Shown: positions 9,901 through 62,167 of the stretch, one piece after another
Layout: each line of letters opens with the position of its first letter
How positions within the stretch are numbered: the first letter of the stretch is position 1
Assembly (NCBI GenBank): GCA_903882965.1
Contig: CAIRZD010000130.1
Span: 1-64,000 of the forward strand
Source of the DNA: an uncultured Bacteroidota bacterium
Lineage (GTDB): Bacteria; Bacteroidota; Bacteroidia; Chitinophagales; Chitinophagaceae
Length of the DNA stretch: 64,000 nucleotides
Direction of reading: 5' to 3'
Translations under genes and position numbers: made by a program
The notes under the pieces: model-generated
The model's database searches: none
What the model saw: only the letters and a program-made list of their open reading frames with translations
Told to the model about the DNA's origin: nothing

Positions 9901-12900
9901 CCATCTGCGATAACAGGCACAACCGCAATATGTATGGGTGCTGCTAACAGCCTTTCTGATGCCACAACCGGTGGCACCTGGGCAAGCAGCACAACAGGTG
10001 TTGCTACTATAGATGGAAGTGGCAATGTTACCACCGTATCAGCCGGTACTTCCAATATAACATATACGCTGCCTACAGGATGTATTGCAACAACAACTAT
10101 TACTGTTAATCCTATATCTGCAATCCTCAATGCATCTGGGGTATGTCTTGGTAATACCATTACTTTAAGCGACGCTACTTCCGGCGGGTCTTGGAGCAGC
10201 AGTAACACTTCAATTGCTGGTATTGGTACATCAGGCATTCTTACAGGCCTGTCAACAGGAACAACTACGATCACTTATACCATGCCTTCCGGTTGCACAG
10301 CTACAACTACCATAACTGTTAATCCGGCGCCTTCGGCCATTACGGGCAATACAATTGTTTGTGTCGGCTTTACATCTGCATTAACTGATGCCGGTGGCGG
10401 TACCTGGACCTCTTCCAACACTTCAATTGCTACTGTTGGATCTGCTTCAGCAGTTGTTACAGGTGTCGGAGCAGGAACTGCCGGTATCACTTATTCGCTC
10501 GCTACAGGTTGCACCGCAACCGTTATCGTAACGGTTACTTCGGTGCCGGGCTCTATCAACGGTGCTACCTCGGTATGTGCAGGTTCGGCTATAACATTAA
10601 CTGATGCAGTTTCCGGAGGCTCATGGAGCAGCAGTAACACTGCTAATGCTTCTGTAGGTTCACTTACCGGTATCGTAACAGGAGTTGGTGGTGGCGTAGC
10701 TACGATCACTTATACAATGGCAGCTGGTTGTTATGTCACATCAGGAATAACTGTAAACGCCATACAACCTATCTTAGGTACACTTAGTGCATGTATTGGG
10801 TCTACAACCAGGTTATCTGATGGTTCTTCTGGCGGTACATGGAGCAGCAGCAACCCTTCTATTGGATCTGTAGGTTCCTCAACTGGCATTGTCGCCGGCA
10901 TTTCGTCTGGTTCGGTTACCATATCTTACACTATACCATCAGGCTGTGTACGTACCGTTTCAGTACAAATTAATGGGTTGCCATCAGCTATCTCAGGTCC
11001 ATCACCAACCGCTGTTTGTATAGGTGGTACAATAACCCTCAGCGATGCCACAACCGGTGGTACCTGGAACAGTAGTAATACATCCGTAGCAACGATAGGA
11101 TCTTCTTCGGGTGTAGTATCCGGCCTGCAGGCAGGTACTATTACAGTCGTCTATACCGCTGGTGCAGGTTGCACGGTTTCTAATGTGGTCACCGTTAATC
11201 CTAATCCATTACCAATCCAGGGCTCCGCTTCAGAATGCTTAGGTACAACCGTATCATTAAGTGATGCCAACTCCGGTGGTACATGGAGCAGCAGCAACAG
11301 CAATGCTTCGATCGACGGGTCTGGAAATATCACAGGCCTTATCGTGGGAACAAGCACAACCACTTATACACTCCCTACAGGCTGTTATATCACATACCCG
11401 AATACGGTCAACAAAAATCCGTCGGCTATATTTGGTACGTTCTCGGTATGTGTGGGCTCAGCAACTCAGTTGAGCGATTCCACAGCTACTTCTGTCAGCT
11501 GGACGAGCAGCAATACTTTAGTTGCTTCGGTTGTTAACTCAGGTACAGTAACCGGGATCGGTGCAGGTACCGCTATCATTACCTATAAGATACTGACCGG
11601 TAGTTGTATAACCACACAAACGGTTACAGTTAATGCGCTTCCGGCAGCAATTACAGGAAACACGCCTGTATGCGCTGGGTCAACAATAACATTAACAGAT
11701 GTCGCAGGTGCTGGTACTTGGACCAGCAGTAATGCAGCAATCGCATCTGTTGGTACTGGATTAGGTGTTGTAACAGGCGTTGCCGGTGGTACCGCTGTTA
11801 TTAGTTATAAACCAAGCGGCGGCTGTACCGTAAATACTACGGTAACGGTCAACCCGATATTTGCTATCTCCGGTGGTACAAATGCCTGTGTCGGAAGTAC
11901 CACTTCACTGTCAGATGCCACAACAGGTGGAACTTGGGCAAGTTCTAACACAAGTATTGCTACCGTAGCATCCACTGGTATTGTCACAGGTGTAAGCGCA
12001 GGATCGGCTACTATTACTTATACACTTGCCACAGGCTGTACACGAACAACAAGTGTAAATATTGGATCAATAGCTCCGATCACAGGCACACTTTCAGTTT
12101 GTACTAATTACACCACAGCACTGACCGACGTTACTTCAGGCGGCACATGGAGTAGTACTAATGCTTCAATAGCATCAGTAAACGCATCGGGTCTTGTAAC
12201 TGCCAATACGCTTTATAATGCAGGCACCGCTACTATATCATATGCAATAGGTACTTGTGCCGCAACTAAGGTGGTTACAGTAAATAGTACGCCGCAACCT
12301 ATTCATGGCGCTACTTCTGAATGTATGGGTACTACCGTCTCATTAAGCGATGCTATAGCAGGTGGCACATGGAGCAGCAGCAATGCTAATGCCTCGATTG
12401 ATGGTTCCGGAAATATTACTGGTGTTGCCGTTGGAACCAGCACAACAAGCTATACAGTGTCTACTGGTTGTTACATCACTTACCCCAATACAGTTCTTGC
12501 TGATCCTACACCTATCCTCGGTACATTCACTGTATGTACAGGATCATTCACCCTGTTAACGGATGCTACTTCAAACGCAACGTCCTGGACGAGCAGCAAT
12601 ACTTTAGTTGCTACAGCTGCCAATTCAGGCGCCGTAACCGGAGTTGCCGCAGGTACTGCAATAATTACATACACCATACATTCCGGTTGTTCTATCACAC
12701 AAACAGTTACTGTTAATCCTACACCGGGTGCCGGCACAATTTCCGGCACTATGACAGTAGCTGTTGGCGCAAATGTTACCCTTACAGATGCTGTCACAGG
12801 TGGCACATGGACTTCCAGCAATATCCCCGTAGCAGTTATTGGTTCTGCTTCCGGTACAGTAACAGGTAATAACCCGGGCAACGCAACTATCTCTTACCAT

Positions 12901-28849: not shown

Positions 28850-28857
28850 TAAATTTG
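28850..28857 (+). promoter_or_regulatory. -7 box (TAAATTTG) adjoining a start codon
   Basis: TAAATTTGC matches TAnnTTTG and ends 6 nt before ATG 28864, which would make the mRNA leaderless or nearly so. No -33 TTTG is visible at the ideal distance. Confidence 0.4.
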
Positions 28858-28863
28858 CTTTAT

Positions 28864-31002
28864 ATGAGAGGTTTCACGAAACAGTATTGCAATATTATCT
28901 TATGCGCTTTGTTTCTACTTGGTTGTTGGGATAATGTAAATGCAGCTATCCCCCCATGTTCCGGACCACCTGTGGTTGCTGCTATTAATGGAACAGACAG
29001 TTTGTGTATTGGGTATTCAGTTACATTATCAGATAATACTTCGGGTGGCATATGGTCAAGCAGCAATACAGGTATTGCGGTAGTAAACACTAGTGGCGTT
29101 GTGACAGGGATGGCAACAGGTGTTGATACTGTGAAATATTCAGTAACTAATAGTTGCGGCACTACCACCGTAACGAAAATTATCCAGGTTGTATCCTTAT
29201 CCCTTGCAGGTATATCCGGTCCTGACACGGTATGTGAAGCTTCGTCAATAACTTTAAATAATACTACTTCAGGTGGCAACTGGAGCAGTAGTAACAGTAT
29301 CGTGGCCGTTGTGGATTCAACGAGCGGAATTATTACCGGGGTATCCGGCGGCGTTGTTATCATAAGCTACACACTACCATCCGGCTGTTTTGTTACCAAA
29401 TGGATTGTTGTAAACCCCATATCGCAGATCACAGGGAGTGCAGCAATTTGTGTTGGTGTCACGGGCCTTTTCAGTGACCTTTCAACAGGTGGCACCTGGA
29501 ACAGCAGCAATACTACTGTAGCGACTATTAATGAAAGTACAGGCTCATCGCAGGCCATTGCACCCGGTGAAACAATGATAACCTACACTATCCCTAATGG
29601 TTGCAGCAGAAGGGTATTGCTTACCGTTAATCCCCTGCCTCCAAATTATTATGTATTTGGTGGTGGTGATTATTGTGCAGGTACATCAGGGGCGACAATA
29701 GGGCTTAATGGCTCTGATACAGGTATCAATTATTCATTGTATGACGGCACGGCGTTTGTTGATTCTCTTCATGGTACCGGCAGTTCACTTTTCTACGGCC
29801 CGTATACGGCAGCGGGAACGTACCAGATATATGGTGTAAATATTGCTACAGGATGTAGTAACCGTATGTCGGGTATTGCAACTATTGGTGTAATACCGGA
29901 TAATGTACCTTCTGTAAGTATTACCACCGGTGTTGGCGACACTGTATGTGTGTTGGCAAACACTACTTTTACAGCATTACCTGTAGACGCGGGCGCATCT
30001 CCTTATTACCAGTGGTACGTGAACAGTGCCAGCATGGGCACCGGTGTTACATACAGCTACGTACCTGCTAACGGAGATGTGGTTTCGGTTGTTATTTTCA
30101 GTGATGCAGTTTGCGCGATTCCCAGTACTGCAACCAGTGCCATGACCATGACGACGATACCGAGAGTTTCGCCATCGATAAGCCTTTCTGTAACCCCCGC
30201 AGATACTGTGTGTGAATATGTACCGGCAACTATCATTCCTGCACCGGTTTATGGTGGGCCCACGCCTACATACAGGTGGATAAAGAATGGCTACACTGCA
30301 GCTATTGGACCCGTATATACTTATGTGCCTGCCAATGGGGATAATATACTGTGCTCTATGTATAGCAGTTATGAATGCCTCATTACAGATTCGGTTTACA
30401 GCACCAATAATATTAACATGACCGTTGTACCGTTGCTGATACCCACTGTAACTGTTACTGCACATCCGGGCGATACCATAACACAAGGTAATAGTGATAC
30501 ACTTGTGGCAAAGGTCGTGAATGGCGGAACGTCGCTGGCTTATCAGTGGGAAATAAACGGTATAGCTGTTCCCGGTGCCACAAACGATACATTTACCAGT
30601 AGTAATTTTTCCGGCATTGATACCGTGGCCTGCGTAGTGACTAGCACCAGTTTTTGCGGAGGAGAACCGGCAATTGCTTATATAGTGATCAGGGATACAG
30701 ATACTGTGAGCCATTTGGGAATTGAAATGTTTTCGTCTTCCGGGGAAGAAGTTAGAATAGTGCCTAATCCTAACAAAGGAGTATTTACCATTAACGATAC
30801 ATTTATTTCTGTTGCCAACGAAGCTACTGTGGAGATAGCAGATGTATTAGGGCAAATGGTTTATAGGCGAGTTATTCCACTGCAAAAAGGAAAATTGAAT
30901 GCGCAGATAGATATGGATGAGCAGTTGGTAAATGGGGTTTATCTGATTCGTATCACAGCTAATGGAGCTGGTGTGTTTAGCAGGGTTACATTGACCAGGT
31001 AA
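28864..31002 (+). CDS. Ig-like/PKD-like repeat protein with T9SS sorting domain
   Basis: From ATG 28864 the protein has 712 aa (the track used TTG 28855). It starts with a signal peptide (NIILCALFLLGCWDNVNA). Three BIG2-type Ig modules follow (GGIWSSSN, GGNWSSSN, GGTWNSSN), then a module with DYCAGTSGATIGLNGS related to the GTYYFRA module of the left giant. Next come three PKD-like units (YYQWYVNSA, TYRWIKNGY, AYQWEINGI). The C-terminus is a type A sorting domain (IVPNPNKGVF, then VLGQMVY and a final RVTLTR). It is a cell-surface or released adhesin-like protein by family. A strong terminator follows. Confidence 0.9.
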   Translation: MRGFTKQYCNIILCALFLLGCWDNVNAAIPPCSGPPVVAAINGTDSLCIGYSVTLSDNTSGGIWSSSNTGIAVVNTSGVVTGMATGVDTVKYSVTNSCGTTTVTKIIQVVSLSLAGISGPDTVCEASSITLNNTTSGGNWSSSNSIVAVVDSTSGIITGVSGGVVIISYTLPSGCFVTKWIVVNPISQITGSAAICVGVTGLFSDLSTGGTWNSSNTTVATINESTGSSQAIAPGETMITYTIPNGCSRRVLLTVNPLPPNYYVFGGGDYCAGTSGATIGLNGSDTGINYSLYDGTAFVDSLHGTGSSLFYGPYTAAGTYQIYGVNIATGCSNRMSGIATIGVIPDNVPSVSITTGVGDTVCVLANTTFTALPVDAGASPYYQWYVNSASMGTGVTYSYVPANGDVVSVVIFSDAVCAIPSTATSAMTMTTIPRVSPSISLSVTPADTVCEYVPATIIPAPVYGGPTPTYRWIKNGYTAAIGPVYTYVPANGDNILCSMYSSYECLITDSVYSTNNINMTVVPLLIPTVTVTAHPGDTITQGNSDTLVAKVVNGGTSLAYQWEINGIAVPGATNDTFTSSNFSGIDTVACVVTSTSFCGGEPAIAYIVIRDTDTVSHLGIEMFSSSGEEVRIVPNPNKGVFTINDTFISVANEATVEIADVLGQMVYRRVIPLQKGKLNAQIDMDEQLVNGVYLIRITANGAGVFSRVTLTR

Positions 31003-33849: not shown

Positions 33850-34848
33850 ATGAAGAAAATCTACTTACTGTTATTTGCCCTGGTAGCAGGGTGCACTGCT
33901 TTTGCACAGTCTAATGCAGGTATGGAAACATGGCGTAGCGGCAATTCTGGTACCGGTCCGATTGTTGCGATACATGCTCCCGACCAATGGTTTGGTTTTG
34001 ATTCCCTTGTGATTGCCGAAGAAGAGGGGCTTTTACCATTATTTTTTGCAGGTTATATGCCTACTAATTTACATGCCCAGCTTTTTCAGGAAACCAGTAT
34101 TGTACATTCCGGTACTTCTTCAGCTAAGATAGTTACACTTAAGCAGGATACAATTGGCATGTTTGCCGGAATACTTTCAAACGCAAAGGCAAACTTAAAT
34201 ACAACTGAGTTAATAGCTACCATGAACCTGGGGCAGTCATTAACATTAACCGGAGGCACACCCGTAACCGGAAGGATAGCTTCTGTAAGTGCCTGGGTTA
34301 GGTATACTCCAGGTAAAGATAGTACAGGTGCCACCGGAATAGATAGCGGCACATTTGTGGTAACGGTGTATAGCCAGGTATCGGGGGTAGATTCTGCTGT
34401 AGGCACTGTTACTATGAAAATAGGACCTACTGCAACATGGAGGCAGGTTACTGCACCTGTTGTTTATGCAGACTCAGTTGATGGTGCTGATACGGTACGC
34501 ATCCAATTTGCAAGTAGTGGACAGATCGGCGCGTTGGATAGCAGCACACTTTATGTAGATGATGTTAGTATGACCTACCTGCCAAACGCTGTTAAAAATG
34601 TGAATTTGCAAAATGATGTAAAAGTATACCCTAACCCAGCATCAGGAATATTGTACGTAGAAGGTGCTGATAATGCAGGAGCAAACTTCCGTTTATATGC
34701 AATGAATGGCCAGCTTGTCGCTAACAAAACATTGACCAGCAAGGATGCAATAGATATTTCAAACCTGTCTGATGGCGTGTATTTCTACACTATCTCTGAT
34801 GTAAATGGTAACACCACGCAGAGAGGAAAAGTAAGTGTGTTGAAATAA
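33850..34848 (+). CDS. T9SS-sorted protein with carbohydrate-binding-like beta-sandwich
   Basis: The 332-aa protein has a signal peptide (MKKIYLLLFALVAGCTAFAQ), a single beta-rich domain (residues about 20-250) opening with NAGMETWRSG and holding TSSAKIVTLKQD, RIASVSAWVRYTPG and DSSTLYVDDVSMTY, and then a type A sorting domain (VKVYPNPASGILYV, ending QRGKVSVLK). The middle part resembles the PCMD/carbohydrate-binding-like sandwiches often found in this position. It is exported through T9SS by inference. It lies 33 bp after the peroxiredoxin gene and is followed by a strong terminator. Confidence 0.82.
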   Translation: MKKIYLLLFALVAGCTAFAQSNAGMETWRSGNSGTGPIVAIHAPDQWFGFDSLVIAEEEGLLPLFFAGYMPTNLHAQLFQETSIVHSGTSSAKIVTLKQDTIGMFAGILSNAKANLNTTELIATMNLGQSLTLTGGTPVTGRIASVSAWVRYTPGKDSTGATGIDSGTFVVTVYSQVSGVDSAVGTVTMKIGPTATWRQVTAPVVYADSVDGADTVRIQFASSGQIGALDSSTLYVDDVSMTYLPNAVKNVNLQNDVKVYPNPASGILYVEGADNAGANFRLYAMNGQLVANKTLTSKDAIDISNLSDGVYFYTISDVNGNTTQRGKVSVLK

Positions 34849-43194: not shown

Positions 43195-46100
43195 ATGAAA
43201 CATTTTAACTATTCCCGTTGTAATTCAGCGACTATGAAAAATTCCGGCAGTACACGCAGGGATTTAATTGTAAGCGCTTTATTTTTTTGTACGCTGCTGC
43301 TATGTGGTAATGCTATAGCACAGCCTGTTATTGGCTCATTAAGTACAAATATTGGTGTGCCGGGTAGTAGTATTAACATTAGTGGTTCGAATTTTAATAC
43401 GAACCCCGTAAATAATATTGTTTACTTCGGAGCAACGAAAGCTACTGTAAATACTGCAAGCGCTACATCGCTAGGTGTAACGGTGCCTGTGGGAGCGACT
43501 TATGCGCCGGTTACTGTAAATAATACGGCAACGCACCTGATGGGGTATTCGGATTATTCGTTTTTGCCGAGATATAATAATAGCGGGTATTTGCCGGGGG
43601 CAATAAATTTCGATTCGAATGTAAGTTTTACAGACGCAGGTTCTAATACTCCTGTACAAGTAGTGATCGCAGATATAGATGGGGATGGTACACCCGACCT
43701 TGTAGTAATGAATAATATTGGTTTTTCGGTATACCGGAATACGAGCACAAGTGGCTCCATTACAAGTGGTTCCTTTGCTACTGCGGTTGACTTTACCGTG
43801 ACCGGGAACGTAGCACAATATGGAGAACCGCAATTAGCTGTGGGCGATATAGACGGGGATGGGAAACAGGATGTATGCATTTGCAATGGCAGTGATACTA
43901 TTTATGTAATGCGCAATACTTCCTCGATCGGAACTGTTAATTTTACATCTCCGGTATTCTTTTTGGGAAATTCATATTATTGGGGCACTGATTATTTTGC
44001 CAGTATAGCAATCATAGATATTGACGGGGATGGGAAAGCAGATATAGTTTGCGGAGATGGTATGGGCATAGCTGTATTCCGGAATATGGGTACTGCTGGA
44101 ACAATAACTTCAAGTTCGCTGGCAACGTCGATAGTTTTTGAGGGAGCCGGTTACTCGGGAATAGCTATCGGGGATTTGGATGGGGATGGTAAGCCGGATG
44201 TGGTAGGCACTATAGGCTCGACAGCGGGAGATAATCTTACAGTATACAAAAATACCAGTTCTCCAGGGGTTATTAACTTTGCAACTTCGGTGGGCTTTGC
44301 TACAGGTAATTATCCGGCAAATGTGCTTATCAGTGATATTGACGGAGATGGCAAGCCTGACCTTGCGTTCCTTAACCAGGGAGATGGCACTCTTGGTCTT
44401 ATGCGTAACACTGCTACGACAGGTACTATTGATGCAAGCTCTTTTGCGGCACAAGTCGTTTTTGCAGCAGGCTATAGCCCGTGGGGTTTAGCTTCAGGAG
44501 ATTTTGATGGTGATGGTAAACCAGACATCGCTGTGTCTAGCCCTTATACTTTGCTCGCCACCTTTGGCCAGACCGTACAGATATTTCATAACATAGCCAG
44601 TGCAGGAACAATAGACACTAATTCGCTTAATGGCAATGAAAATGTTGTAGCAGGGAACCCGATAGTGAGTATAGCAGTGGGTGATATAGACGGGGACAGT
44701 AAGGCTGACATTGTTACGGTGAACCAGGCTGATAATAGTATTTCGGTATTAAGGAATGCTCCTTTATATCCTTCACCTACTATTACGTCAGTAAGTCCGG
44801 ACATTAATTCACCGGGAACCTCTGTAACCATAACGGGCACTAACTTTAATACTACTGCGGCGAATGATATTGTTTATTTCGGGGCTACGAGGGCTACTGT
44901 GAACACGGCAAGCGCTACATCGCTGACTGTGACAGTGCCGATTGGGGCTACTTATGCACCGGTGACTGTAAATAATACGGCAACGAACCTGATGGGGTAT
45001 TCGGAACATGCATTTTTGCCGGATTATAATAACAGTGCATATGTACCGGGTACGGTAAATTTTGATCCTGAAGTGGGTTTTACAGACGCAGCCAATTCTA
45101 ATATAAGCCAGGTAGTAATTGCAGATATAGACGGAGATGGGAAGCCTGATCTTATAGTAGCAGGCGCGACTATTTCTATTTACCGGAATATCAGTACAAG
45201 CGGCTCTATAACTGCCGGTTCTTTTGCAGCTCCAATAGATATCAGTGTAACCGGTAATAACTTGTTTGTAGCTACAGGGGATATAGATGGTGATGGGAAA
45301 CCGGACATGGTTGTCAGTGGTCTGTATAGTGATTCTATTTACGTATTCCGCAATACCTCTACCAGCGGTTCTGTAAATTTTGCACCGTATGTGGCATTTA
45401 CAGAGAATACATCTTATACGCCTCAGGGCCCTATTAATATAGCCATTGGTGATATAGATGGGGATGGTAAAGCGGATATAATTACCGGTACCTATGGGGC
45501 CCAATATTTTGCAGTATTCAGGAATACTGCTACAGCCGGGACAATAGATGCCAGCTCGCTGGCCACTGCCGTAGATTTTCCAGCAGCCATTACAGGTAGT
45601 GGAGGTAATAGTTTTGTAGCTATAGGGGACCTGGATGGAGACGGGAAGCCAGATGTGGTAATCACGAACGACTATATAGATGTGTGGGTAATGCATAATA
45701 CCAGCACAGCTGGCTCACCCAGCTTTGCAGCAGGTGTGGACTTTACAGCGGGCAATGGTACAACATTTATAGCCATCAGCGATATAGATGGGGATGGAAA
45801 AGCAGACCTTGCAATTTCTAATACAAATGATGGTACCGTTTCTATTTTGCGTAATACAGCCACTGCGGGTACTATTAATGCCAGTTCTTTCGCTGCACAG
45901 GTAGTTTTTGCTGTCGGCTATGATCCATACAGTATTGTTTGGGGTGATTTTGACGGTGATGGAAAACCAGACCTAGCTGTGAGCAGCGGCTTATACACTG
46001 CGACCCCCCTATTTACCTATGTATTCCGGAATACATCTACACCAGGTGTCATAAACAGCAGTTCACTCACCGGCAAGATGTATGCCGGAGCAGCAAGCAC

Positions 46101-49100
46101 TATTTCCAGTGTAGTTGCGGGCGATATAGATGGAGATGGCAAGACAGATATAATTACAGCAAACTTCAGTAGTAATACTATTTCGGTATTAAGGAATGAT
46201 CCTTTATTACCAGTGATCACATCTGTGAACCCGACGATAGCTGCTGCGGGCGCTACAGTGACCATAAGCGGTGCGAATTTTAATACTACAAGTGCAAATG
46301 ATATTGTTTATTTCGGGGCTACTCGGGCATCGGTAACTTCAGCGAGCGCTACATCACTGAGTGTAACAGTGCCTGTGGGCGCAACGTATGCACCAGTATC
46401 AGTTACTAATACCTTGAACGGGCTGGCCGCATTTTCAACAAATGCGTTTTTGCCCAATTATAATAACAGTGCGTACCTGCCTGGATTGGTAAATTTTGAT
46501 CCACATGTGGACTTCACAGATCCGGGGGGCGTTTACCCGGGGAAGACAGTAATTGCAGATATAGACGGAGATGGGAAACCTGATATGATAACAGTAGGGG
46601 GCTTCGGTATTTCGGTGTACCTAAATACAAGCACAAGCGGCACTATCACGAGCGGTTCTTTCGGAACTGCTGCTGATTTTACGGTACCCGGTGGTTGGGG
46701 CTCTACACTAGGAGCAGGAGATATAGATGGAGATGGCAAGCCGGATTTAGTGGTTGCAGGTAATGGTAACATTGTGTTATTCCGCAATACTTCTACGACC
46801 GGGTCTGTGAGCCTTGCATCTCCTGTAACCATCGCCGCAGATTTTATGGATAATAATCCTTATGCTATCGCTATCGCGGACCTTAATGGAGACGGGAAAC
46901 CTGATGTGATTGTTTCGGATGCATATTACGGTAATATTGCGGTATACCTGAATACGGCAACAGTAGGCACGATAGACGTCAACTCGCTGACAACAGGGGC
47001 TGGGGTGGAGTCTGCAGGTTTAGATTTCCCAATTCCGGGAGGGGGAGGGTATTTGCATGGTCTCGCTGTCGGCGACCTAGATGGAGACGGTATACCTGAT
47101 GTTGCAGTGGCAGATATCAATAATAATGTGGTTTGGGTATTCCGTAATACTTTTTTGAGCGGAGCTGTGGGTTTTGCGGCGCCTGTGAGCTTTGCTACAG
47201 GCAATGGGGTTAATGATGTACTTATCGCTGATATAGATGGTGACGGGAAACCAGACCTGGCTGCCGTGAACTTATCTGATAATAGTATTTCTCTCTTACG
47301 CAATACATCAACGGTTGGGGCGCCTTCATTTGCAAGCCAGGTAGTTTTTGCTACCGGGAATCAACCATACACAATAGCTTCAGGTGATTTTGACGGAGAT
47401 GGAAAACCAGACCTTGCTGTGGAGAACTATAGTGATAATACCATTTCTGTATTCCGCAATACAGCTACGGCAGGAAATATTAATACAGGGTCGTTAGCGA
47501 CAAGCAGTGTGTTTGCAACAGGTAATGGCCCCCAGTATATAGCAGCGGGTGATATGGACGGGGATGGCAAGACGGATATAGTAGTTGCCAATACCAATGA
47601 CGGAAGTATTTCAGTATTGAGGAATTATCCTTTATATCCGCACCCGACTATAACGTCAGTAAGTCCATTGATTGACTCGCCGGGAACTTCTGTAACCATA
47701 ACCGGTACTAATTTTAATACAACTGCGACGAATGATATTGTTTATTTCGGGGCTACGAGGGCTACTGTGAACACGGCAAGCGCTACATCGCTGACTGTGA
47801 CAGTGCCGATTGGGGCTACTTATGCACCGGTGATGGTGGATAATACACTGCATGGGCTGATGGCATTATCGCCGAAAGCGTTTTTGCCGAATTATGATAA
47901 CAATGCTTATGCGCAAGGAGTAATAAATTTTGATCCGAAGGTGACTTTTACAGATCCGGGAGGTGTAGGCGGCGGGCAAATGCTTATCGCAGATATAGAT
48001 GGAGATGGCAAGCCTGATATGATAACAAGCACTGGGGCATCTATTTCCGTTTACCGGAATATAAGTGCAAGTGGCTCTATTACGAGCGGGTCTTTTGCAA
48101 CGGCGGTAGATTTTGTTGTTCCGAGTGCAATTGGGGGAGCGCTGACATTTGGCTATGGCGCAATCGCAGCAGGTGATATTGATGGGGATGGTAAACCTGA
48201 TTTAGTCTTTGCCGGAAATGATGCTTCAAATAATTTTTACATTTTTGCATTCCGGAATACATCCACCAGCGGATCCATCAGCTTTGCATCACCAGGAGTG
48301 ATCCCTTATATCAGCTCTGATGAAGAGCCTACAAGTATTGCTATCGCAGACATAGATGGGGATGGGAAAGCGGATGTTGTTACCGCAAATTTTTATGGAA
48401 ATGTTTCTGTATTTTTAAATTCTGCCACGGTTGGAATTATTAATTCCAGTTCGTTTGCAGCCCCTATAGATTTTGGAAATTGGGGGACAGCAAGCGGGCA
48501 AAAACTTGCGGTAGGCGATCTTGACGGAGATGGGAAACCAGACCTAGCATATACAGATTATTTTAATAATGTGTCTGTGCAGCTTAATACATCCACTATA
48601 GGGGTGGCCGGCTTTGCAGCCCCGGTAAGTTTTGCCGCGGGAAATGCACCTTACGGTATAGTGATCGCGGATATAGATGGGGATGGCAAACCAGACCTTG
48701 CAGTAACGAATGTGACTGATAATACGATTTCGCTTTTTCGGAATACGGCTACTGTAGGTAGTATAGATGGCAGTTCGTTTGCGAGCCAGGTAGTTTTTAC
48801 TACCGGTATGGGACCATTCGATGTAGCCTCAGGCGATTTTGACGGCGATGGGAAACCAGACCTGGCAGTGGTGAACATTAACGGGTATGATAATTCAGTT
48901 TCTATATTCCGCAATACAGCAACTACAGGTTCTATTAATACCGGATCTCTGGCGGCAGGTGTGACTTTTGCCACCGGTAGCGCGCCAGCGTATATGGCTG
49001 TAGGTGATATAGATGGAGATCGTAAGGCGGATGTGGTAATTGCAAATATCGGGGATGGTAATATATCGGTATTAAGGAATGATCCTTTTTATGCGAGTCC

Positions 49101-52100
49101 TACTATAACATCAGTGAGTCCGTTGATTGACTCACCGGGAACTTCTGTAACGATAACGGGTACTAATTTTAATACTGTAGCGGCGAGTGATATTGTTTAT
49201 TTCGGAGCTACGAGGGCAACGGTAAATGCGGCAAGCGCAACATCGCTGAGTGTAACTGTGCCTGTAGGAGCGACTTATGCACCGGTGACTGTGGATAATA
49301 TGCTGCATGGGCTGATGGCATTTTCACCGAAAGCATTTTTACCTGATTATAATAACAGTGCATATCTGCCCGGGATTGTAAATTTTGACCCACAAGTGGT
49401 TTTTACTGATCTCTCCAGTTATAATGCAAGCCAGGTGGTTATCGCAGATATAGACGGTGATGGTAAACCAGACATGGTAGTTGCAGGCAGTACATCTATT
49501 TCTATTTATCTAAATACAAGTACAAGTGGATCCATTACCAGTGGATCTTTTGCATCACCGGTGGATTTTGCCATACCATCAGCCGGTGGTAGTAATTATT
49601 TTTCTATAATTGGGATAGGCGATATTGATGGTGATGGTAAGCCAGACCTGGTTGTGGCAGGGGCGAGGGGGTATAGTTTTGATGGATCAGGAGTGCAGAG
49701 CGATAGTATTTCAGTATTTCGCAACACTTCGACCGGCGGGTCTGTAAGTTTCGGATCGCCTGTGTCATTTGCACAAGGGCCAAATGATTTCCCGACAGCT
49801 ATAACTGTTATGGATATAGATGGAGATGGGAAAGCAGATGTAATAACAACAAATAATGACGGCAACGTTGTAGTATTCCGGAATACAGCTGCCATTGGTA
49901 GCATCACTATATACTCGCTGAATTTGCCGGTGGATCTTTCTACTGCGGGCGGTGCCCTGGCAGGTTTGGCTGTGGGCGACCTTGATGGGGATGGTAAGCC
50001 AGATATAGCAGCTGACGATAACAATAATAATGTTGTCTGGGTATTACGCAATACCAGTATTTTGGGCAGTATAGGATTTGCAACACCAGTGAGTTTTCCT
50101 ACCGGCATAGAGCCGTATGGTATTGTGATCGGAGATATAGACGGGGATGGTAAGCCAGACTTGGCGATCGCTAACTCGAATGACAATACGATTTCACTTT
50201 TGCGTAATACATCTGTAGTTGGTACTATTGATGGAAGTTCTTTTGCGGGGCAGGTGGTTTTTGTTGCAGGCATTAATCCGTGGAGTATAGCTTCAGGTGA
50301 TTTTGACGGTGATGGAAAACCGGATCTGGCTGTTATCAATCTTGTTTCATCAACTGTTTCCGTTTTCCGTAATACAGCTACGGCCGGCAACATTAATTCA
50401 AGTTCACTTGCAGCAAAGGTGGATTATGCAACAGGTAGCGAGGGACAGGGTGTAGCCGCAGGTGATATAGATGGGGACGGTAAAGCCGATATAATAACAG
50501 CCAATACGAGCGCTGGCACTGTATCGGTATTGCGGAATGATCCATTAATGGCAACCAGCATTACCATTACAGGTAATACTCCATTATGCGTTAGCTCAAC
50601 AATAACACTGAATGGAACACCGGCTGGTGGAACATGGAGCAGTGGTAATGCGGCTGTGGCCACTGTGGGTGGCTCTACAGGAGTTGTGACAAGCGTAAGC
50701 GCAGGGACAAGTCTAATATCTTATACAACTTCAGGTGGAGCGACAACGACAATAGTGACCGTTAATGCTATACCAACGGCCGCACCCGCCAGTAATGGAC
50801 CTATTTGTAGCGGAGGGAATGTGATGATTGTCGCAAATGCTACAGGCGCTACTAATTTCTCCTGGAGCGGGCCGAATTTATCATCAACCACAATTGCGAA
50901 TCCTATTGCTACACCTACTGCTACGGCCACTTACTCTTTGACGGTGAGCAATGCAGGTTGCAGTTTATCAACGACAACGTTAGTTATTGTAAACCCTGCC
51001 CCAACAGCAGCCCCAACAAATAACTCACCGATATGCAGCGGAGGGACAGTGATGCTTGCCGCACATCCTTCGGGAGGCGTTACAAATTATTCGTGGAGTG
51101 GGCCTAATTTGTCTTCAGGAAGCGTACAAAATCCTACAGCAACTCCTACCGTCACTGTTGCAACATATTCTTTGACAGTAAGCAGCAGCCTTGCCTCAGG
51201 CTGCAGCCCATCGACGGTATATACAACTACAGTTGTTGTTAATCCATTACCTAGTGCGGGAAGTATAAGTGGGCCGTCATCTGTGTCAACAAGGCACAGC
51301 ATTACTTTGACTGATGCTGTTGCAGGAGGTATATGGACATCATCGAATGCAGGAGTTGCTGCTGTGAATAGTGCAGGTATTGTAACAGGAGTTGCTGCAG
51401 GTAGCGCCGTTATTACTTATGCAGTAACTAATAGTTGTGGTACTGCTTATGCGACAACTACAATTACTGTGACTACAGGTGTAATCAGTTGTACTACGGC
51501 AAGTAACATATCGACCTTTGCCGGTGACCATGTGAATGGTTATAATGGTGATGGCGGTATGGCGACTGCTGCTGAAACAGGGAGCTCTTATGGCGTGGCT
51601 GCAGACGGTGTGGGCAATGTTTATATAACAGACTATTTTAACAATGTAGTACGCAAAGTAGACCCATCAGGTGTGATCTCTACTATCGCGGGTACAGGTG
51701 CTGCAGGGTACAACGGCGATGGTATTGCGGCAACTTCGGCGCAACTGAACGGGCCGATGGGTATAACGCTGGATGGTGCAGGAAATATTTACATCGCTGA
51801 TAAATACAATGAGCGTATCCGTATGATCAATACAGCAGGTGTGATCACAACTATAGCGGGAAATGGTTTTCATGGTGGCTGGGCCGGGCATGGATATGGT
51901 AGTGGCGGACCAGCCGATTCGGCGAGCCTGGATTATCCTGTATCTGTTGCAGTGGATTGCAGCGGCAACATGTATATAGCAGACCAGGGCAGTGAAACGG
52001 TGCGTAGAATAAATGCATCCGGTATAATCAATTTCTTTGCAGGAACAGGTGCAGGTGGGTATAATGGTGATGGGATAGCTGCTGCTACAGCACAACTCAA

Positions 52101-53361
52101 TAACCCAAGTGGTGTGGCGGCAGATTGTGCCGGTAATGTATACATAGCAGACGCATGGAATAACCGAGTGCGTAAAGTTGATGCATCAGGGATCATTACT
52201 ACTATTGCCGGTAATGGCGTTGCAGGATATGGTGGCGACGGCAGCCCGGGCGGCTCTGCGGAATTATGGATACCAACCGGTGTGACGCTTGATGCATGTG
52301 GTGACCTTTATATCTGCGACTGGCAAAATAATGTGGTAAGATTCTTGAGTACAGATGGTTATATTTCCACTTTTGCAGGTAATAATATTAGCGGCTATGA
52401 TGGTGATGGTGGTGCTGCAAATGCTGCCGAGCTATATCTGCCAAGCAGCCTTGCAATAGACGGACTTGGAAATGTATATATAGCTGATTATGGGAATTAT
52501 GTGATACGAGCTATAGGTAATGCGCTGCCTGCCGAAAGGAAATTTATAAATGGTACTACGCAGGATATGACGGTTTGTGAAAATGAAACAGCCATCCCGA
52601 TAAATAGCCTGATGGCGATACCTGATGCCGCGAGCGGTAATACAGAAACCTGGGTAGTAAGTATAAACCCGGCACATGGTACGCTTAGCGGATTTAATGC
52701 GACCGCTACATCAACGATAGGTATAACTACCCCAATGGGATTGATCTATACTCCTGAAGCCGGGTATGCGGGTATGGATGCATTTACCATTATGGTGAAG
52801 GATGGGACAACTGCGGCATCTACGACTGTGAATGTGAAAGTGGATTCTATGCCAAACCCGGGTATCATAATCGGAAGTTCAAATATTATTATTGGCAAGA
52901 ACATCGCCCTTGTTAATGCCAGCGGCGACAAAAACGGGGTATGGAGCAGCAGTGATAACTTGATAGCTACGGTAGATGCATCGGGTAATGTAACCGGAGT
53001 GGGTAGTGGGATTGCAACTATCTCATATACAGTGGCCAACAATTGCGGATCAAAGAGCGCTACAACAGGGATAGAGATAAACGATGTATCGGCGCACCAA
53101 GGGAATGTATTATTAGTGCCAAATCCGAATAACGGAACGTTTACTATCAGGGGCCCCATAGGGGCAACCGTAAATGAAGTGGTGACGCTTGAAGTAACGG
53201 ATATGCTTGGCCAGACTATTTATAAAGCCGAGGTTGTGGCAAAGAACGGCAGCATTAATGAGACTATATCGATGAGCAATACCCTGGCTAATGGCATGTA
53301 TATGGTGAATATGCACAGCGAAACAGTTAGCAAGGTGTTCCACTTTGTGATTGAGAGATAG
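43195..53361 (+). CDS. 3388-aa multi-propeller T9SS protein (IPT + FG-GAP/VCBS x5, Ig-like, NHL)
   Basis: A signal peptide (LFFCTLLLCGNAIAQ) follows a basic leader; ATG 43234 (MKNSGS) is an alternative start. Next come five modules of about 480 aa starting near 43324, 44776, 46210, 47641 and 49096. Each has an IPT/TIG domain (ITSVSP...PGTSVTITGTNF) and then exactly seven FG-GAP/VCBS blades with the DxDGDGKPDL calcium-binding loop, 35 in all, predicting five seven-bladed propellers. From about 50552 there are BIG2- and PKD-like modules. Nucleotides 51505-52520 encode six NHL repeats (GYNGDG..A..AQL...GVA.D..GNVYIAD), predicting a six-bladed propeller. A cadherin-like domain (YTPEAGYAGMDAFTI), one Ig-like module and a T9SS type A tail (VPNPNNGTF, ending HFVIER) close it. 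The ligand is unknown. Confidence 0.92.
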   Translation: MKHFNYSRCNSATMKNSGSTRRDLIVSALFFCTLLLCGNAIAQPVIGSLSTNIGVPGSSINISGSNFNTNPVNNIVYFGATKATVNTASATSLGVTVPVGATYAPVTVNNTATHLMGYSDYSFLPRYNNSGYLPGAINFDSNVSFTDAGSNTPVQVVIADIDGDGTPDLVVMNNIGFSVYRNTSTSGSITSGSFATAVDFTVTGNVAQYGEPQLAVGDIDGDGKQDVCICNGSDTIYVMRNTSSIGTVNFTSPVFFLGNSYYWGTDYFASIAIIDIDGDGKADIVCGDGMGIAVFRNMGTAGTITSSSLATSIVFEGAGYSGIAIGDLDGDGKPDVVGTIGSTAGDNLTVYKNTSSPGVINFATSVGFATGNYPANVLISDIDGDGKPDLAFLNQGDGTLGLMRNTATTGTIDASSFAAQVVFAAGYSPWGLASGDFDGDGKPDIAVSSPYTLLATFGQTVQIFHNIASAGTIDTNSLNGNENVVAGNPIVSIAVGDIDGDSKADIVTVNQADNSISVLRNAPLYPSPTITSVSPDINSPGTSVTITGTNFNTTAANDIVYFGATRATVNTASATSLTVTVPIGATYAPVTVNNTATNLMGYSEHAFLPDYNNSAYVPGTVNFDPEVGFTDAANSNISQVVIADIDGDGKPDLIVAGATISIYRNISTSGSITAGSFAAPIDISVTGNNLFVATGDIDGDGKPDMVVSGLYSDSIYVFRNTSTSGSVNFAPYVAFTENTSYTPQGPINIAIGDIDGDGKADIITGTYGAQYFAVFRNTATAGTIDASSLATAVDFPAAITGSGGNSFVAIGDLDGDGKPDVVITNDYIDVWVMHNTSTAGSPSFAAGVDFTAGNGTTFIAISDIDGDGKADLAISNTNDGTVSILRNTATAGTINASSFAAQVVFAVGYDPYSIVWGDFDGDGKPDLAVSSGLYTATPLFTYVFRNTSTPGVINSSSLTGKMYAGAASTISSVVAGDIDGDGKTDIITANFSSNTISVLRNDPLLPVITSVNPTIAAAGATVTISGANFNTTSANDIVYFGATRASVTSASATSLSVTVPVGATYAPVSVTNTLNGLAAFSTNAFLPNYNNSAYLPGLVNFDPHVDFTDPGGVYPGKTVIADIDGDGKPDMITVGGFGISVYLNTSTSGTITSGSFGTAADFTVPGGWGSTLGAGDIDGDGKPDLVVAGNGNIVLFRNTSTTGSVSLASPVTIAADFMDNNPYAIAIADLNGDGKPDVIVSDAYYGNIAVYLNTATVGTIDVNSLTTGAGVESAGLDFPIPGGGGYLHGLAVGDLDGDGIPDVAVADINNNVVWVFRNTFLSGAVGFAAPVSFATGNGVNDVLIADIDGDGKPDLAAVNLSDNSISLLRNTSTVGAPSFASQVVFATGNQPYTIASGDFDGDGKPDLAVENYSDNTISVFRNTATAGNINTGSLATSSVFATGNGPQYIAAGDMDGDGKTDIVVANTNDGSISVLRNYPLYPHPTITSVSPLIDSPGTSVTITGTNFNTTATNDIVYFGATRATVNTASATSLTVTVPIGATYAPVMVDNTLHGLMALSPKAFLPNYDNNAYAQGVINFDPKVTFTDPGGVGGGQMLIADIDGDGKPDMITSTGASISVYRNISASGSITSGSFATAVDFVVPSAIGGALTFGYGAIAAGDIDGDGKPDLVFAGNDASNNFYIFAFRNTSTSGSISFASPGVIPYISSDEEPTSIAIADIDGDGKADVVTANFYGNVSVFLNSATVGIINSSSFAAPIDFGNWGTASGQKLAVGDLDGDGKPDLAYTDYFNNVSVQLNTSTIGVAGFAAPVSFAAGNAPYGIVIADIDGDGKPDLAVTNVTDNTISLFRNTATVGSIDGSSFASQVVFTTGMGPFDVASGDFDGDGKPDLAVVNINGYDNSVSIFRNTATTGSINTGSLAAGVTFATGSAPAYMAVGDIDGDRKADVVIANIGDGNISVLRNDPFYASPTITSVSPLIDSPGTSVTITGTNFNTVAASDIVYFGATRATVNAASATSLSVTVPVGATYAPVTVDNMLHGLMAFSPKAFLPDYNNSAYLPGIVNFDPQVVFTDLSSYNASQVVIADIDGDGKPDMVVAGSTSISIYLNTSTSGSITSGSFASPVDFAIPSAGGSNYFSIIGIGDIDGDGKPDLVVAGARGYSFDGSGVQSDSISVFRNTSTGGSVSFGSPVSFAQGPNDFPTAITVMDIDGDGKADVITTNNDGNVVVFRNTAAIGSITIYSLNLPVDLSTAGGALAGLAVGDLDGDGKPDIAADDNNNNVVWVLRNTSILGSIGFATPVSFPTGIEPYGIVIGDIDGDGKPDLAIANSNDNTISLLRNTSVVGTIDGSSFAGQVVFVAGINPWSIASGDFDGDGKPDLAVINLVSSTVSVFRNTATAGNINSSSLAAKVDYATGSEGQGVAAGDIDGDGKADIITANTSAGTVSVLRNDPLMATSITITGNTPLCVSSTITLNGTPAGGTWSSGNAAVATVGGSTGVVTSVSAGTSLISYTTSGGATTTIVTVNAIPTAAPASNGPICSGGNVMIVANATGATNFSWSGPNLSSTTIANPIATPTATATYSLTVSNAGCSLSTTTLVIVNPAPTAAPTNNSPICSGGTVMLAAHPSGGVTNYSWSGPNLSSGSVQNPTATPTVTVATYSLTVSSSLASGCSPSTVYTTTVVVNPLPSAGSISGPSSVSTRHSITLTDAVAGGIWTSSNAGVAAVNSAGIVTGVAAGSAVITYAVTNSCGTAYATTTITVTTGVISCTTASNISTFAGDHVNGYNGDGGMATAAETGSSYGVAADGVGNVYITDYFNNVVRKVDPSGVISTIAGTGAAGYNGDGIAATSAQLNGPMGITLDGAGNIYIADKYNERIRMINTAGVITTIAGNGFHGGWAGHGYGSGGPADSASLDYPVSVAVDCSGNMYIADQGSETVRRINASGIINFFAGTGAGGYNGDGIAAATAQLNNPSGVAADCAGNVYIADAWNNRVRKVDASGIITTIAGNGVAGYGGDGSPGGSAELWIPTGVTLDACGDLYICDWQNNVVRFLSTDGYISTFAGNNISGYDGDGGAANAAELYLPSSLAIDGLGNVYIADYGNYVIRAIGNALPAERKFINGTTQDMTVCENETAIPINSLMAIPDAASGNTETWVVSINPAHGTLSGFNATATSTIGITTPMGLIYTPEAGYAGMDAFTIMVKDGTTAASTTVNVKVDSMPNPGIIIGSSNIIIGKNIALVNASGDKNGVWSSSDNLIATVDASGNVTGVGSGIATISYTVANNCGSKSATTGIEINDVSAHQGNVLLVPNPNNGTFTIRGPIGATVNEVVTLEVTDMLGQTIYKAEVVAKNGSINETISMSNTLANGMYMVNMHSETVSKVFHFVIER
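43324..50551 (+). repeat. Five tandem IPT + seven-blade modules (period about 1.43-1.46 kb)
   Basis: Module starts are spaced 1452, 1434, 1431, 1455 and 1456 bp (to the end of the fifth). DNA similarity is highest in the IPT part. Modules 2 and 4 share a 103-bp perfectly identical stretch (44863-44965 and 47731-47833) that module 3 lacks. GATATAGATGGGGATGG-type loops recur 35 times. Confidence 0.9.
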
Positions 53362-53376
53362 ATTAAAAATTAATAA

Positions 53377-53425
53377 CTGCCCGCTTATCTGATCGTGAAA
53401 GATCAGACGAGCGGGTAGTTTTTTT
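53377..53425 (+). terminator. Terminator of the 3388-aa gene
   Basis: CTGCCCGCTTATCTGATC pairs (with G-U wobbles) with GATCAGACGAGCGGGTAG over a short loop, followed by T7. Confidence 0.9.
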
Positions 53426-53470
53426 ATTGTTGAACCAGCGAGGAAACTATATTATCTTGCAGGTTTGACC

Positions 53471-56201: not shown

Positions 56202-57962
56202 ATGAAGAAATTTTATTTTTTATCCCTATTGTGCTGCTTGAGTTTTGTAACATTTGCACAAAGTACAGTAACGATATATGCTACCGGCCTTACAGGGTCA
56301 TACACAACCGGAACTGCAAGTAGTTTTGGGACACGGACAGACGGTAACATTGTAACATCTGGAACTACCTTCAGAGGGTATGCTGTTTTTGACCTCAGCT
56401 CTATTCCTGTGGGAGCAACGATAACGGGTGTTGTTATTGGCTTCAATGTAAGCGGTTATGGTGGTGGTGGTGCGCCATCGGGTTGGAATACTTATGGCTA
56501 TGCAAGCGATCTTTCTACGGTGACCACTGCGGCTACGCTTTTTGCAGATATGGTAGCAGGGACTTCACTTACCACAGCTACTTACGGAACGGCTACCGGT
56601 AACCAGACACTTGCGTCGACAGGGGCATCAACTACTTTTATACAGACCAACTCAGGCAGTAAAGTTTCTATTTGCTGGACCGGCGGGGGAAGTAAAAATT
56701 ATACTATAACCGGGGAAACAGGCACAGCTACAACAACCGGTACCAATGCCCCTTATTTGCAAATCAGTTATACCTGCGCCGGGGTAAGCGGAGTAAGCGC
56801 GTCGGCAACACCAAACCCGATATGTGTTGGTTCGTTATTATCGCTAACCGGTGTTGCGACGGGTGCAACAAGTTATTCATGGTCGGGCCCGGGCCCATAT
56901 ACATCTGCAACACAGAGTCCAACATTTGCTACTACTGCTTCTTCGGGAGGGGTATACACTTTTACTGCGTATAACTCGACCGGTTGCGGTACGCAGGCTA
57001 CGACAGCGGCAGTGACATTAAATGCAACGCCAGTAGCTACGGTTACGACAACCTCTTCTGTGGTGTTTTGTGCGGGACAAAATGTAGTACTTACCGGCAC
57101 CACAGGAGCCGGGTATACTTACCAATGGGATCAATCAGGTGGAATAATCGGGGGGGCAACAAACCAGACATATACGGCATCAAATAGCGGTGGTTATACC
57201 GTTGATATAACAGATCCTTCAACCGGTTGTTCAAGCACATCTACTCCAGTTGTTGTGAATGCTATCCCTGATGCACCACCGCTAACACCTGCGGGTAGTG
57301 CAGGGCTATGTACCGGAAGTGATTTGACGCTGGCAATAAATTTGAGCGGAGTAACTACCGGTATGACTTATCAATGGGCCAGAGGCGGTATACCGATTGC
57401 AGGGGCTAACAGCAGTAATTATACAACAGCTACCGGAGGGAATTATTATTGTATACTTACGCTTCCAACTTGTGTCGATACTACACAAACGACTATAGTA
57501 AATGTCTTATCGTTGCCTACACCAACAGTTAGTTTTAACGGGGCGATATTATCAACATCTTCTGTGTATTCAGGTTACCAGTGGTTTTTGAATTTAGTAG
57601 CAATACCCGGTGCTACTACTTCTACTTATTTCCCCACATCAATAGGCAGTTATCGTGTGAGGGTAACGGATACAAATGGATGTACTAACTACTCGGCTCC
57701 GGACGGGGTAAATTTTTTAGGTGTGGCACAGATAAATGCTGCGGCCATAAAAATATATCCTAACCCGGCTACCCAAATGGTGCATATAACATCTGCTGAA
57801 CCAGTAAGTGCAGTAATATCAAGTGTTGAAGGGAAACAATTGATCAACAGGTCAGCAGCTATTGATATTGATGTGAATGAATTGCCGAGCGGATTATATA
57901 TCATTATGCTATACAATGAAGCAGGTGACCGTGTGTATATTGATAAATTAATTAAAGAATAA
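56202..57962 (+). CDS. PKD-like/Ig-like exported protein with T9SS sorting domain
   Basis: The 586-aa protein has a signal peptide (FYFLSLLCCLSFVTFAQ). Residues about 20-190 form a distinct N-terminal beta-domain (RGYAVFDLSSIPVGATITGVVIGF, then GSKVSICWTGGGSKNYTITGETG, resembling DNRLRE/sialate-binding-like secreted domains). PKD-like units follow (SYSWSGPGPYTSATQSP, YTYQWDQSGGIIGGA, MTYQWARGGIPIAGANS), then YQWFLNLVAIPGATTSTY and a type A tail (IKIYPNPATQMVHI, ending KLIKE). The tail is of the same subgroup as in the 59621-62167 protein. A long hairpin follows the stop. Confidence 0.88.
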   Translation: MKKFYFLSLLCCLSFVTFAQSTVTIYATGLTGSYTTGTASSFGTRTDGNIVTSGTTFRGYAVFDLSSIPVGATITGVVIGFNVSGYGGGGAPSGWNTYGYASDLSTVTTAATLFADMVAGTSLTTATYGTATGNQTLASTGASTTFIQTNSGSKVSICWTGGGSKNYTITGETGTATTTGTNAPYLQISYTCAGVSGVSASATPNPICVGSLLSLTGVATGATSYSWSGPGPYTSATQSPTFATTASSGGVYTFTAYNSTGCGTQATTAAVTLNATPVATVTTTSSVVFCAGQNVVLTGTTGAGYTYQWDQSGGIIGGATNQTYTASNSGGYTVDITDPSTGCSSTSTPVVVNAIPDAPPLTPAGSAGLCTGSDLTLAINLSGVTTGMTYQWARGGIPIAGANSSNYTTATGGNYYCILTLPTCVDTTQTTIVNVLSLPTPTVSFNGAILSTSSVYSGYQWFLNLVAIPGATTSTYFPTSIGSYRVRVTDTNGCTNYSAPDGVNFLGVAQINAAAIKIYPNPATQMVHITSAEPVSAVISSVEGKQLINRSAAIDIDVNELPSGLYIIMLYNEAGDRVYIDKLIKE

Positions 57963-59620: not shown

Positions 59621-62167
59621 ATGAGCAATTTTACTTCATCCAGCTCTGTACCCTCTAAATATGCATATGCAAGAGTATGTAGGGTAGTAAGCCTAATTTA
59701 TTCGGCTCTTGCAGGCAAAAAACAAATACGGTTTGTAATGGCCGGCTTGTTGTTTTTATTGGTAAGCAGTATGGGCAATAAAGCATTTGCATTTGGAACA
59801 ACATATTATTACCCAACCTCTGTTACTGCAGGCGGCGGCGGTACTTATTGCGTAGGTAGCACCGCAACAGGATTGACTGGTACAATTAACGATGGAAGTT
59901 CCACTGCTACAGGGGGGACAAGTTCTACCGTTACATGGACATGGTATTACAACACTACGGGAGCTACCGGCACCACTGCGGGTGCGACATCCGTTTTAAC
60001 CGGGGGGCCTTATACCGCAGGTAGTGGAAGTACATCCGCTCCGCTTCCATCGGCAAATATTTCTACTGCTACTCCAGGTACTTATTATTACTTCCTTTGT
60101 GTGAACTATGCGGGGGGTACTTATGGTAGTGGATCTTTGTTTTCGAACTTAATTACTGTAACCGTTAATTCCACGCTGCCAATTACGGGCACTACAACGA
60201 TTTGCCAGGGTTCTACTACTACGTTAGGTGACGCTACTCCGGGAGGGACGTGGAGCAGCACCGTACCCGGCGTGGCGACGGTTACTAGCGGTGGTGGTTT
60301 AGTCACGGGTATTTCCGGTGGGTTGACGAGTATCGTTTACAGTGCCGGTTGTGGCGCTCCGGCAACTATCACTGTATCAGTAACTGCAATTCCATCGGCT
60401 ATTACCGGTCCAGGTGCTGTCTGTATAGGAAACACGATCACGTTGTCAGATAGCCCATTCGGTGCGTGGGGGAGTTCAAATACCTCAGTTGCTACTGTTG
60501 CTCCTACCACAGGTGTAGTATCGGGGTTAACAAGTGGTACAACCAATATAACCTACAGCAATGGCTGTGGCACACCCGCGTCAACGATAATTACTGTTAA
60601 TCCACTACCACCAAGTATTACCGGACCAGATAGTTTGTGCCCAGGTGGTGCTACTATCACGTTAAATGATGCAACGACAGGTGGTACATGGTCTAGTTCG
60701 ATGCCTACTGTTGCTGCCGCAGGCCTTGTTACCGGAGTAATAACCAGTGGCCTATCAGGTACTACAACGATCACTTATACATCGCCGTTAACCTGCATTA
60801 CGACTAAAGTGGTAACAGTAGAACCATTACCCGCACCAATAGGAGGGATACTCCATGAGTGTGCAGGTACGCAGGTTACTTTGACAAATACTACTATTGG
60901 TGGGACATGGGTAAGCAGTACCCCTCCGGTAGCCAGCATTGATACTAATAGCGGGCTTGTGACCGGCGTATCGGGTGGAACAACTGTGATCACTTATATT
61001 ACTGCCTGTGGTTCTATCACAGCCATAGATACATCAATTGCCGCTCCTGATCCGATAGTAGGGAATGGCAGCGTATGTCTTGGCAGCGCTACTACTTTTG
61101 CAGATATACCAACAGGCGGTACCTGGACTAGCAGTACACCAGGAACAGCATCAGTACTTTCGGGATCAGGTGTGATAACTGGAGTAACTGTGGGAACGGC
61201 AACTATTACTTATACTATTCCTCCGGGATGCTCTGCGATAAAATCGGTAAATGTAGTGGCATTACCCCCGGCAATAAGTGGTGTTAAACACACTTGCATT
61301 GGTATGACAACCACTTTAAATGATGCATTTACAGGCGGGACATGGAGTAGTTTACAAACTTACGTAGCCAGCGTAAATGATGCAAGCGGTATTGTAACCG
61401 GAGTAACGGCAGATACTGCTAATATTGTTTATACTGATGCCGCAGGCTGTAAGACCAGCACAACTGTGACCGTAAACCCATCACCGGATTCAATAGTCAC
61501 CGGGTTTATTGCTAACTGCAGCTCAACGATGGATACTATGTATGATGCTACTCCAGGAGGCGCATGGAGTAGCGGTGCCACTGCGGTTGCGACGATAAGT
61601 GCTGCAGGTGTTGTTACAACACTTACAGGGGGAACAGCAATTATCACTTATAAATTACCTACCGGCTGTTTGGTAAGTAAATCATTTAGTGTGCATCCGC
61701 TTCCTTCACCAATTGTAACCTGGGATTGGGCTACGAATACATTTTTCACGAATAATATTTATGTAACCTACCAATGGTATGATTCTATCCAAGGACAAAT
61801 TAACGGAGCAAATGCTTTCCAGACAGCGGCTTTATATAATGGATATTACTGGGTAGTAGTAACAGATACCAATGGATGCACGGCTGCGTCAGGGCATGTT
61901 CATTACAATACAAATATGACCGGAGTGCCGACAGTCAATAGTGGTACAGTTTTGCGTATTTATCCTAATCCGGCGAATGGGGTTGTTTATATAGAATCGG
62001 GGATACGGGTACGTGCTGTGATTAGGGGAATAGATGGGAAAACGGAGCTGGAGGAAGTAGATGCCAAGCAGCTTGATATAAGCAGGTTGGCAAACGGGAT
62101 ATATTTCATTTCGCTGTATGCAGATAGCGGGCAGCGATTGATTGTGGAGAAGCTTATAAAACAATAG
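59621..62167 (+). CDS. Ig-like repeat protein with T9SS sorting domain
   Basis: The 848-aa protein has an unusual start: the hydrophobic signal (FVMAGLLFLLVSSMGNKAFA) begins only at about residue 38 after a polar/basic leader. ATG 59738, immediately before AGLLFLL, would give a shorter form but lacks the basic region. After a first beta-domain (VTWTWYYNTTGATGTT) come seven or eight BIG2-type modules (GGTWSSTVPG, GGTWSSSMPT, GGTWVSSTPP, GGTWTSSTPG, GGTWSSLQTY, GGAWSSGATA). A PKD-like unit (YVTYQWYDSIQGQING) and a type A tail (LRIYPNPANGVVYIE, ending KLIKQ) close it. It is followed by a perfect 18-bp hairpin. Confidence 0.9.
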   Translation: MSNFTSSSSVPSKYAYARVCRVVSLIYSALAGKKQIRFVMAGLLFLLVSSMGNKAFAFGTTYYYPTSVTAGGGGTYCVGSTATGLTGTINDGSSTATGGTSSTVTWTWYYNTTGATGTTAGATSVLTGGPYTAGSGSTSAPLPSANISTATPGTYYYFLCVNYAGGTYGSGSLFSNLITVTVNSTLPITGTTTICQGSTTTLGDATPGGTWSSTVPGVATVTSGGGLVTGISGGLTSIVYSAGCGAPATITVSVTAIPSAITGPGAVCIGNTITLSDSPFGAWGSSNTSVATVAPTTGVVSGLTSGTTNITYSNGCGTPASTIITVNPLPPSITGPDSLCPGGATITLNDATTGGTWSSSMPTVAAAGLVTGVITSGLSGTTTITYTSPLTCITTKVVTVEPLPAPIGGILHECAGTQVTLTNTTIGGTWVSSTPPVASIDTNSGLVTGVSGGTTVITYITACGSITAIDTSIAAPDPIVGNGSVCLGSATTFADIPTGGTWTSSTPGTASVLSGSGVITGVTVGTATITYTIPPGCSAIKSVNVVALPPAISGVKHTCIGMTTTLNDAFTGGTWSSLQTYVASVNDASGIVTGVTADTANIVYTDAAGCKTSTTVTVNPSPDSIVTGFIANCSSTMDTMYDATPGGAWSSGATAVATISAAGVVTTLTGGTAIITYKLPTGCLVSKSFSVHPLPSPIVTWDWATNTFFTNNIYVTYQWYDSIQGQINGANAFQTAALYNGYYWVVVTDTNGCTAASGHVHYNTNMTGVPTVNSGTVLRIYPNPANGVVYIESGIRVRAVIRGIDGKTELEEVDAKQLDISRLANGIYFISLYADSGQRLIVEKLIKQ

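Follow-up and report, generated by a model that had tools for sequence, protein, structure and literature searches.

An uninterrupted open reading frame (ORF) of 3388 aa, opening with an ATG and lying at positions 43195-53361 (+) of the window (i.e., the whole 64,000-nucleotide stretch of DNA analysed here), raises the question of how so long a protein was built and what it could do for the cell that makes it. The answer depends on the order of its domains, on whether its repeats close into complete beta-propellers, on the unit by which these repeats multiplied and on the company that such proteins keep in other Bacteroidota.

Domain layout, calcium-type loops and predicted folds

Most of the protein (aa 46-2450) consists of five modules, each containing one of the five TIG stretches recognised by Pfam (PF01833, E=4e-38) and seven matches to a blade profile, while FG-GAP_3 (PF13517) reaches 627 bits with 30 stretches over the ORF. 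The NHL repeats lie at aa 2782-3122 (Pfam TEN_NHL, E=2e-35) and are flanked on both sides by Ig-like stretches, which were absent from the initial annotation; the first of these (aa 2453-2771) contains a single Big_2 match above the cut-off together with weaker Ig matches in Pfam. The C-terminal tail scores 36 bits with Por_Secre_tail (PF18962, cut-off 27) and 28.8 bits with the T9SS type A tail of NCBIfam (TIGR04183, curated cut-off 23). Judged by eye, the N-terminus resembles a typical Sec signal peptide, and M14 is an equally plausible start. The features are as follows:

43195..53361, + strand: giant ORF with a putative signal peptide, five repeats of IPT plus a seven-blade VCBS/FG-GAP propeller, an Ig-like part, a six-blade NHL domain, a second Ig-like part and a C-terminal sorting domain
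43195..43320, + strand: putative N-terminal signal peptide (RR..LIVSALFFCTLLLCGNAIA|QP), judged by eye
43330..44781, + strand: module 1, IPT/TIG and seven-loop propeller, aa 46-529 (blades by homology to modules 2-3)
44782..46215, + strand: module 2, IPT/TIG and seven-blade propeller, aa 530-1007 (loops and model, mean pLDDT 91)
46216..47649, + strand: module 3, IPT/TIG and seven-blade propeller, aa 1008-1485 (loops and model)
47650..49104, + strand: module 4, IPT/TIG and seven-loop propeller, aa 1486-1970 (Pfam, loops and blade comparison)
49105..50544, + strand: module 5, IPT/TIG and seven-loop propeller, aa 1971-2450 (Pfam, loops and blade comparison)
50551..51507, + strand: Ig-like stretch joining module 5 to the NHL domain, aa 2453-2771 (Pfam)
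51508..52560, + strand: NHL domain, six repeats, closed and six-bladed in the model (Pfam, model and Foldseek)
52564..53049, + strand: Ig-like domains (Big_9, Big_2) between the NHL domain and the tail, aa 3124-3285 (Pfam)
53119..53352, + strand: T9SS type A C-terminal sorting domain (PF18962, TIGR04183 and model)
53376..53426, + strand: likely intrinsic terminator, a long hairpin and T run just past the stop codon (-30.7 kcal/mol, z -8.05)

The gene after the terminator encodes a POTRA-containing protein and is followed by a gene for NAD kinase; none of the genes neighbouring the ORF indicates a specific function.

A scan of the protein for D-x-[DN]-G-D returned 35 loops falling into five groups of seven, with a spacing of 51-65 aa inside a group, of 145-147 aa over a module boundary and a regular distance of 478-485 aa from module to module. 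A chance origin of these loops was rejected, as 500 shuffles of the protein gave a mean of 0.4 loops and a maximum of 3. The initial annotation had described exactly seven DxDGDG(K/I/T)xD loops in each module. The count of seven holds, but the literal pattern is matched by 32 of the 35 loops (6, 7, 6, 6 and 7 in modules 1 to 5). Since the three remaining loops, DIDGDSKAD (aa 497), DLNGDGKPD (aa 1229) and DIDGDRKAD (aa 1938), keep D at positions 1, 5 and 9 and D or N at position 3, as do all others (35/35 at each of the four positions), they do not alter this count. The loops are regarded as putative calcium sites, acidic residues at these positions being a necessary but not a sufficient feature.

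Modules 2 and 3 were predicted together with AlphaFold2, the input being 65 aligned two-module segments (mean pLDDT 91, pTM 0.81). In both modules of the model, the strands of an IPT/TIG beta-sandwich precede the propeller and are followed by one isolated strand (98-101 / 576-579) and by seven A-B hairpins, the DxDxDG-type loops falling between consecutive strands, namely A and B of each blade. The early strand would then supply the last strand of blade 7. Read from the order of strands assigned by DSSP, modules 2 and 3 are thus predicted to be closed seven-bladed propellers, and modules 1, 4 and 5 are probably seven-bladed as well, by homology. Foldseek, run on the model of modules 2 and 3, retrieved proteins with two propellers, such as DDB1, at poor TM-scores (about 0.2-0.35), which say only that the model reads as paired propellers.

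The NHL domain was modelled with six four-stranded blades (pLDDT about 95), the sixth of which is completed by the N-terminal strand 17-22, supporting a closed six-bladed propeller. Its Foldseek matches include a bacterial teneurin-like protein (9ifo, 43% identity), PknD, NHLRC2 and the designed Pizza propellers. The proposal of the initial annotation that the protein is made of whole propellers agrees with these models, in which modules 2 and 3 exhibit neither an open or solenoid fold nor unequal numbers of blades, and its count of six NHL repeats is reproduced by both Pfam and the closed model. Seven strands were modelled in the C-terminal sorting domain with moderate confidence, and the Ig-like stretch ahead of it shows no reliable fold in the model (pLDDT under 50).

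Growth of the module array

Each of the 35 blades was compared with the other 34, and for 34 of them the best match was the same-numbered blade of another module, with a mean identity of 0.54 between cognate blades and of 0.37 between non-cognate ones. A tree built from 64 propellers groups the five modules in a single clade (SH-aLRT 99), in which modules 3 and 4 pair and are then joined by module 5, while module 1 groups with module 2. Both results bear out the earlier suggestion that whole propellers, and not single blades, were the unit of duplication, and they refine it, supporting an array that would have grown by duplication of the IPT and propeller together rather than of the propeller alone.

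The age of these events can be approached in two ways. Codon identity at shared residues is only about 45-63% between modules, a level too low for recent duplications. A smaller tree, extended with L178, a protein from the same genus, places two L178 modules near those of the window, the arrangement within the group being weakly supported; with L178 included, the case for a strictly monophyletic set of five modules becomes weaker, though support for this change is not strong, and its two nearby modules imply that part of the duplication may be older than the split between the two proteins. The modules differ by 33-41% in DNA and are not identical repeats, making an assembly artefact or a collapsed repeat unlikely.

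Divergence is unevenly distributed along the module. At the amino acid level, the propeller parts are 52-62% identical among the five modules and the IPT parts 61-83%, which is consistent with a stronger constraint on the IPT or with some homogenisation. Among the blades, conservation is lower in 2-4 than in 1, 5 and 6. Larger units may be involved in related proteins. Two of these, from metagenome-assembled genomes (MAGs), contain eight modules in the order A-B-C-A-B-C-A-D (L059) and five in the order A-B-C-A-D (L063), with a DNA identity of 72-82% between cognate modules and of about 49-59% between others. These orders suggest the gain or loss of blocks of three propellers.

The genome that encodes the window protein also encodes a paralogue of 1061 aa (G000:C392), which corresponds to the Ig-NHL-Ig-sorting domain half (57% identity over 914 aa) and lacks the five IPT-propeller modules. 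As this half also occurs on its own, the window protein resembles a mosaic, in which two circulating parts would have been fused.

Export and possible roles

Export through the T9SS, as proposed in the initial annotation, is likely because the same genome encodes the translocon protein SprA (2094 bits) and at least 150 sorting tails, and the type A tail of the protein itself lies above the curated cut-off. Elsewhere in the window, positions 19-13746 (+) encode a T9SS cargo of 4575 aa with at least 12 Big_2 Ig-like domains, and four more proteins with T9SS sorting tails are encoded in the 64 kb (28855-31002, 33850-34848, 56202-57962 and 59621-62167).

The protein is probably a surface-anchored, calcium-stabilised multivalent binding protein delivered as a T9SS type A cargo. 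It would be exported by Sec and would then cross the outer membrane through the T9SS, after which the sorting tail would be lost and the protein either attached to the cell surface or set free. The string of propellers, presumably stiff, loaded with calcium and located at the surface, would act as an adhesin or a glycan-binding scaffold, in which the repeated modules, multiplied by duplication of whole IPT-propeller units, would extend its reach and raise its avidity, and a second binding head could be formed by the NHL domain, closer to the anchor. VCBS propellers are typically linked with the recognition of carbohydrates or with protein interactions (PMC8023676, PMC9218822), and the sequence-profile matches of the modules include CRTAC1, the PVL lectin and integrin alpha; together, these family associations and relatives favour a binding role. 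In the same kind of comparison, the NHL part matches the NHL domain of teneurins.

A possible but unlikely alternative, which ranks second after multivalent binding, is that the five modules are a pure spacer or stalk giving length and stiffness, with binding left to the NHL or Ig-like part. The regular spacing of the modules, the variation of their number from 1 to 9 among related proteins and the gain or loss of whole blocks that sets apart the close relatives L059 and L063 would all suit a stalk. However, the greater divergence of the propeller than of the IPT parts and the lower conservation of blades 2-4 than of blades 1, 5 and 6 are easier to reconcile with binding surfaces that have diversified than with inert spacers. 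A role as a gliding-motility adhesin similar to SprB or RemA, carried along the surface by the T9SS motor, appears improbable. The T9SS is present in the genome and other Bacteroidota are reported to use giant surface adhesins for gliding (PMC8986121), but SprB repeats were not found by Pfam in the 3388-aa protein. Moreover, the sorting tail of SprB is of type B, unlike the type A tail found here. It is most improbable that the protein is a secreted enzyme or a toxin-like protein using propellers as targeting parts: the matches that could point to such a function (FusH esterase and the Tc middle region in Pfam and NCBIfam, lyases in the PDB) all fall on the propeller repeats and are accounted for by shared VCBS blades, and no catalytic domain was detected by Pfam and NCBIfam in the whole 3388 aa. 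The FusH esterase equivalog was rejected with a score of 195.7 against a cut-off of 999. A multivalent binding protein remains the preferred reading.

Propeller strings in other Bacteroidota and in prior work

The initial annotation considered the series of domains unusual, which is not sustained by a survey of related genomes. Among 200 genomes of the same family, 170 contain matches to a window module and 127 to the NHL domain. IPT-propeller strings of one to nine modules are common in Bacteroidota, the long ones including L063 with five, L059 with eight and L061 with nine, and at least three other proteins (L178, L112 and L130) share three IPT-propeller modules followed by an NHL domain, leading us to reject the uniqueness of the architecture, which is ordinary for this phylum. 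Exactly seven blades were counted in 194 of 213 blade runs (111 distinct ORFs) and a multiple of seven in 65 of 73 complete ORFs, in a sample that leans towards the type of the window protein, the blade profile having been built from its own blades and the loci picked by similarity to one of its modules. This near-constant number suggests selection on closed domains.

VCBS and NHL propellers are combined in other ways in L166, L169 and L161; L166 (G215, contig 44) is a frame of 9621 aa with two seven-blade VCBS propellers and a six-repeat NHL domain. In a genome of the same genus (G099, contig 16), L055 and L056 belong to an open frame of 9551 aa with about 66 NHL repeats, arranged in groups of six and one of twelve, which would correspond to about eleven six-bladed propellers.

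It is tempting to regard the secreted propeller strings of Bacteroidota as a length-variable surface system, in which close relatives differ by the acquisition or loss of entire calcium-loaded propellers or of three-propeller blocks, the better conserved IPT acting as recombination-friendly joints, and in which reach and ligand range are tuned; we hold this broader idea to be doubtful. Our search of the literature on VCBS/FG-GAP and on NHL proteins with the T9SS, incomplete in its coverage, returned no description of the architecture.

Integrin-type seven-bladed propellers, some of them in tandem pairs, were described in bacteria by Chouhan et al. (2011, PMC3192720). In the available text of that article, the propellers consist, as here, of seven FG-GAP/Cage repeats with calcium loops, sets of 14 repeats form tandem seven-bladed propellers and Bacteroidetes are among the hosts. 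The copy number is two, versus five in the window protein, that text makes no mention of IPT spacers, an NHL domain or a T9SS tail, and a cytoplasmic role was assumed. The VCBS superfamily of beta-propellers, which includes lectin and integrin relatives, was characterised by Pereira and Lupas (2021/2022; PMC8023676, PMC9218822), and the loop that connects strands A and B in this superfamily, DxDxDG, is the one found in the window modules. The later study stressed the amplification of single blades (PMC9218822), whereas the more recent unit in the window protein appears to be the whole IPT and propeller, which makes it a clear case of protein growth by whole folded propellers. The NHL propeller is shared with teneurins and bacterial teneurin-like proteins (9ifo, 9pt5), and other parts of teneurins were not found in the window protein.

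The closest comparisons are with the three-module proteins. L178 (4201 aa) ends, like the window protein, with a T9SS tail confirmed by Pfam; L112 (MAG of Bacteroidetes SZAS-82) and L130 (Mucilaginibacter kameinonensis) have cognate modules that pair in the tree with a support of 98-100, and in L130 just three NHL repeats score above the cut-off applied. With five modules versus three in each of these relatives, the window protein represents an already known type of bacterial propeller string in a longer form.
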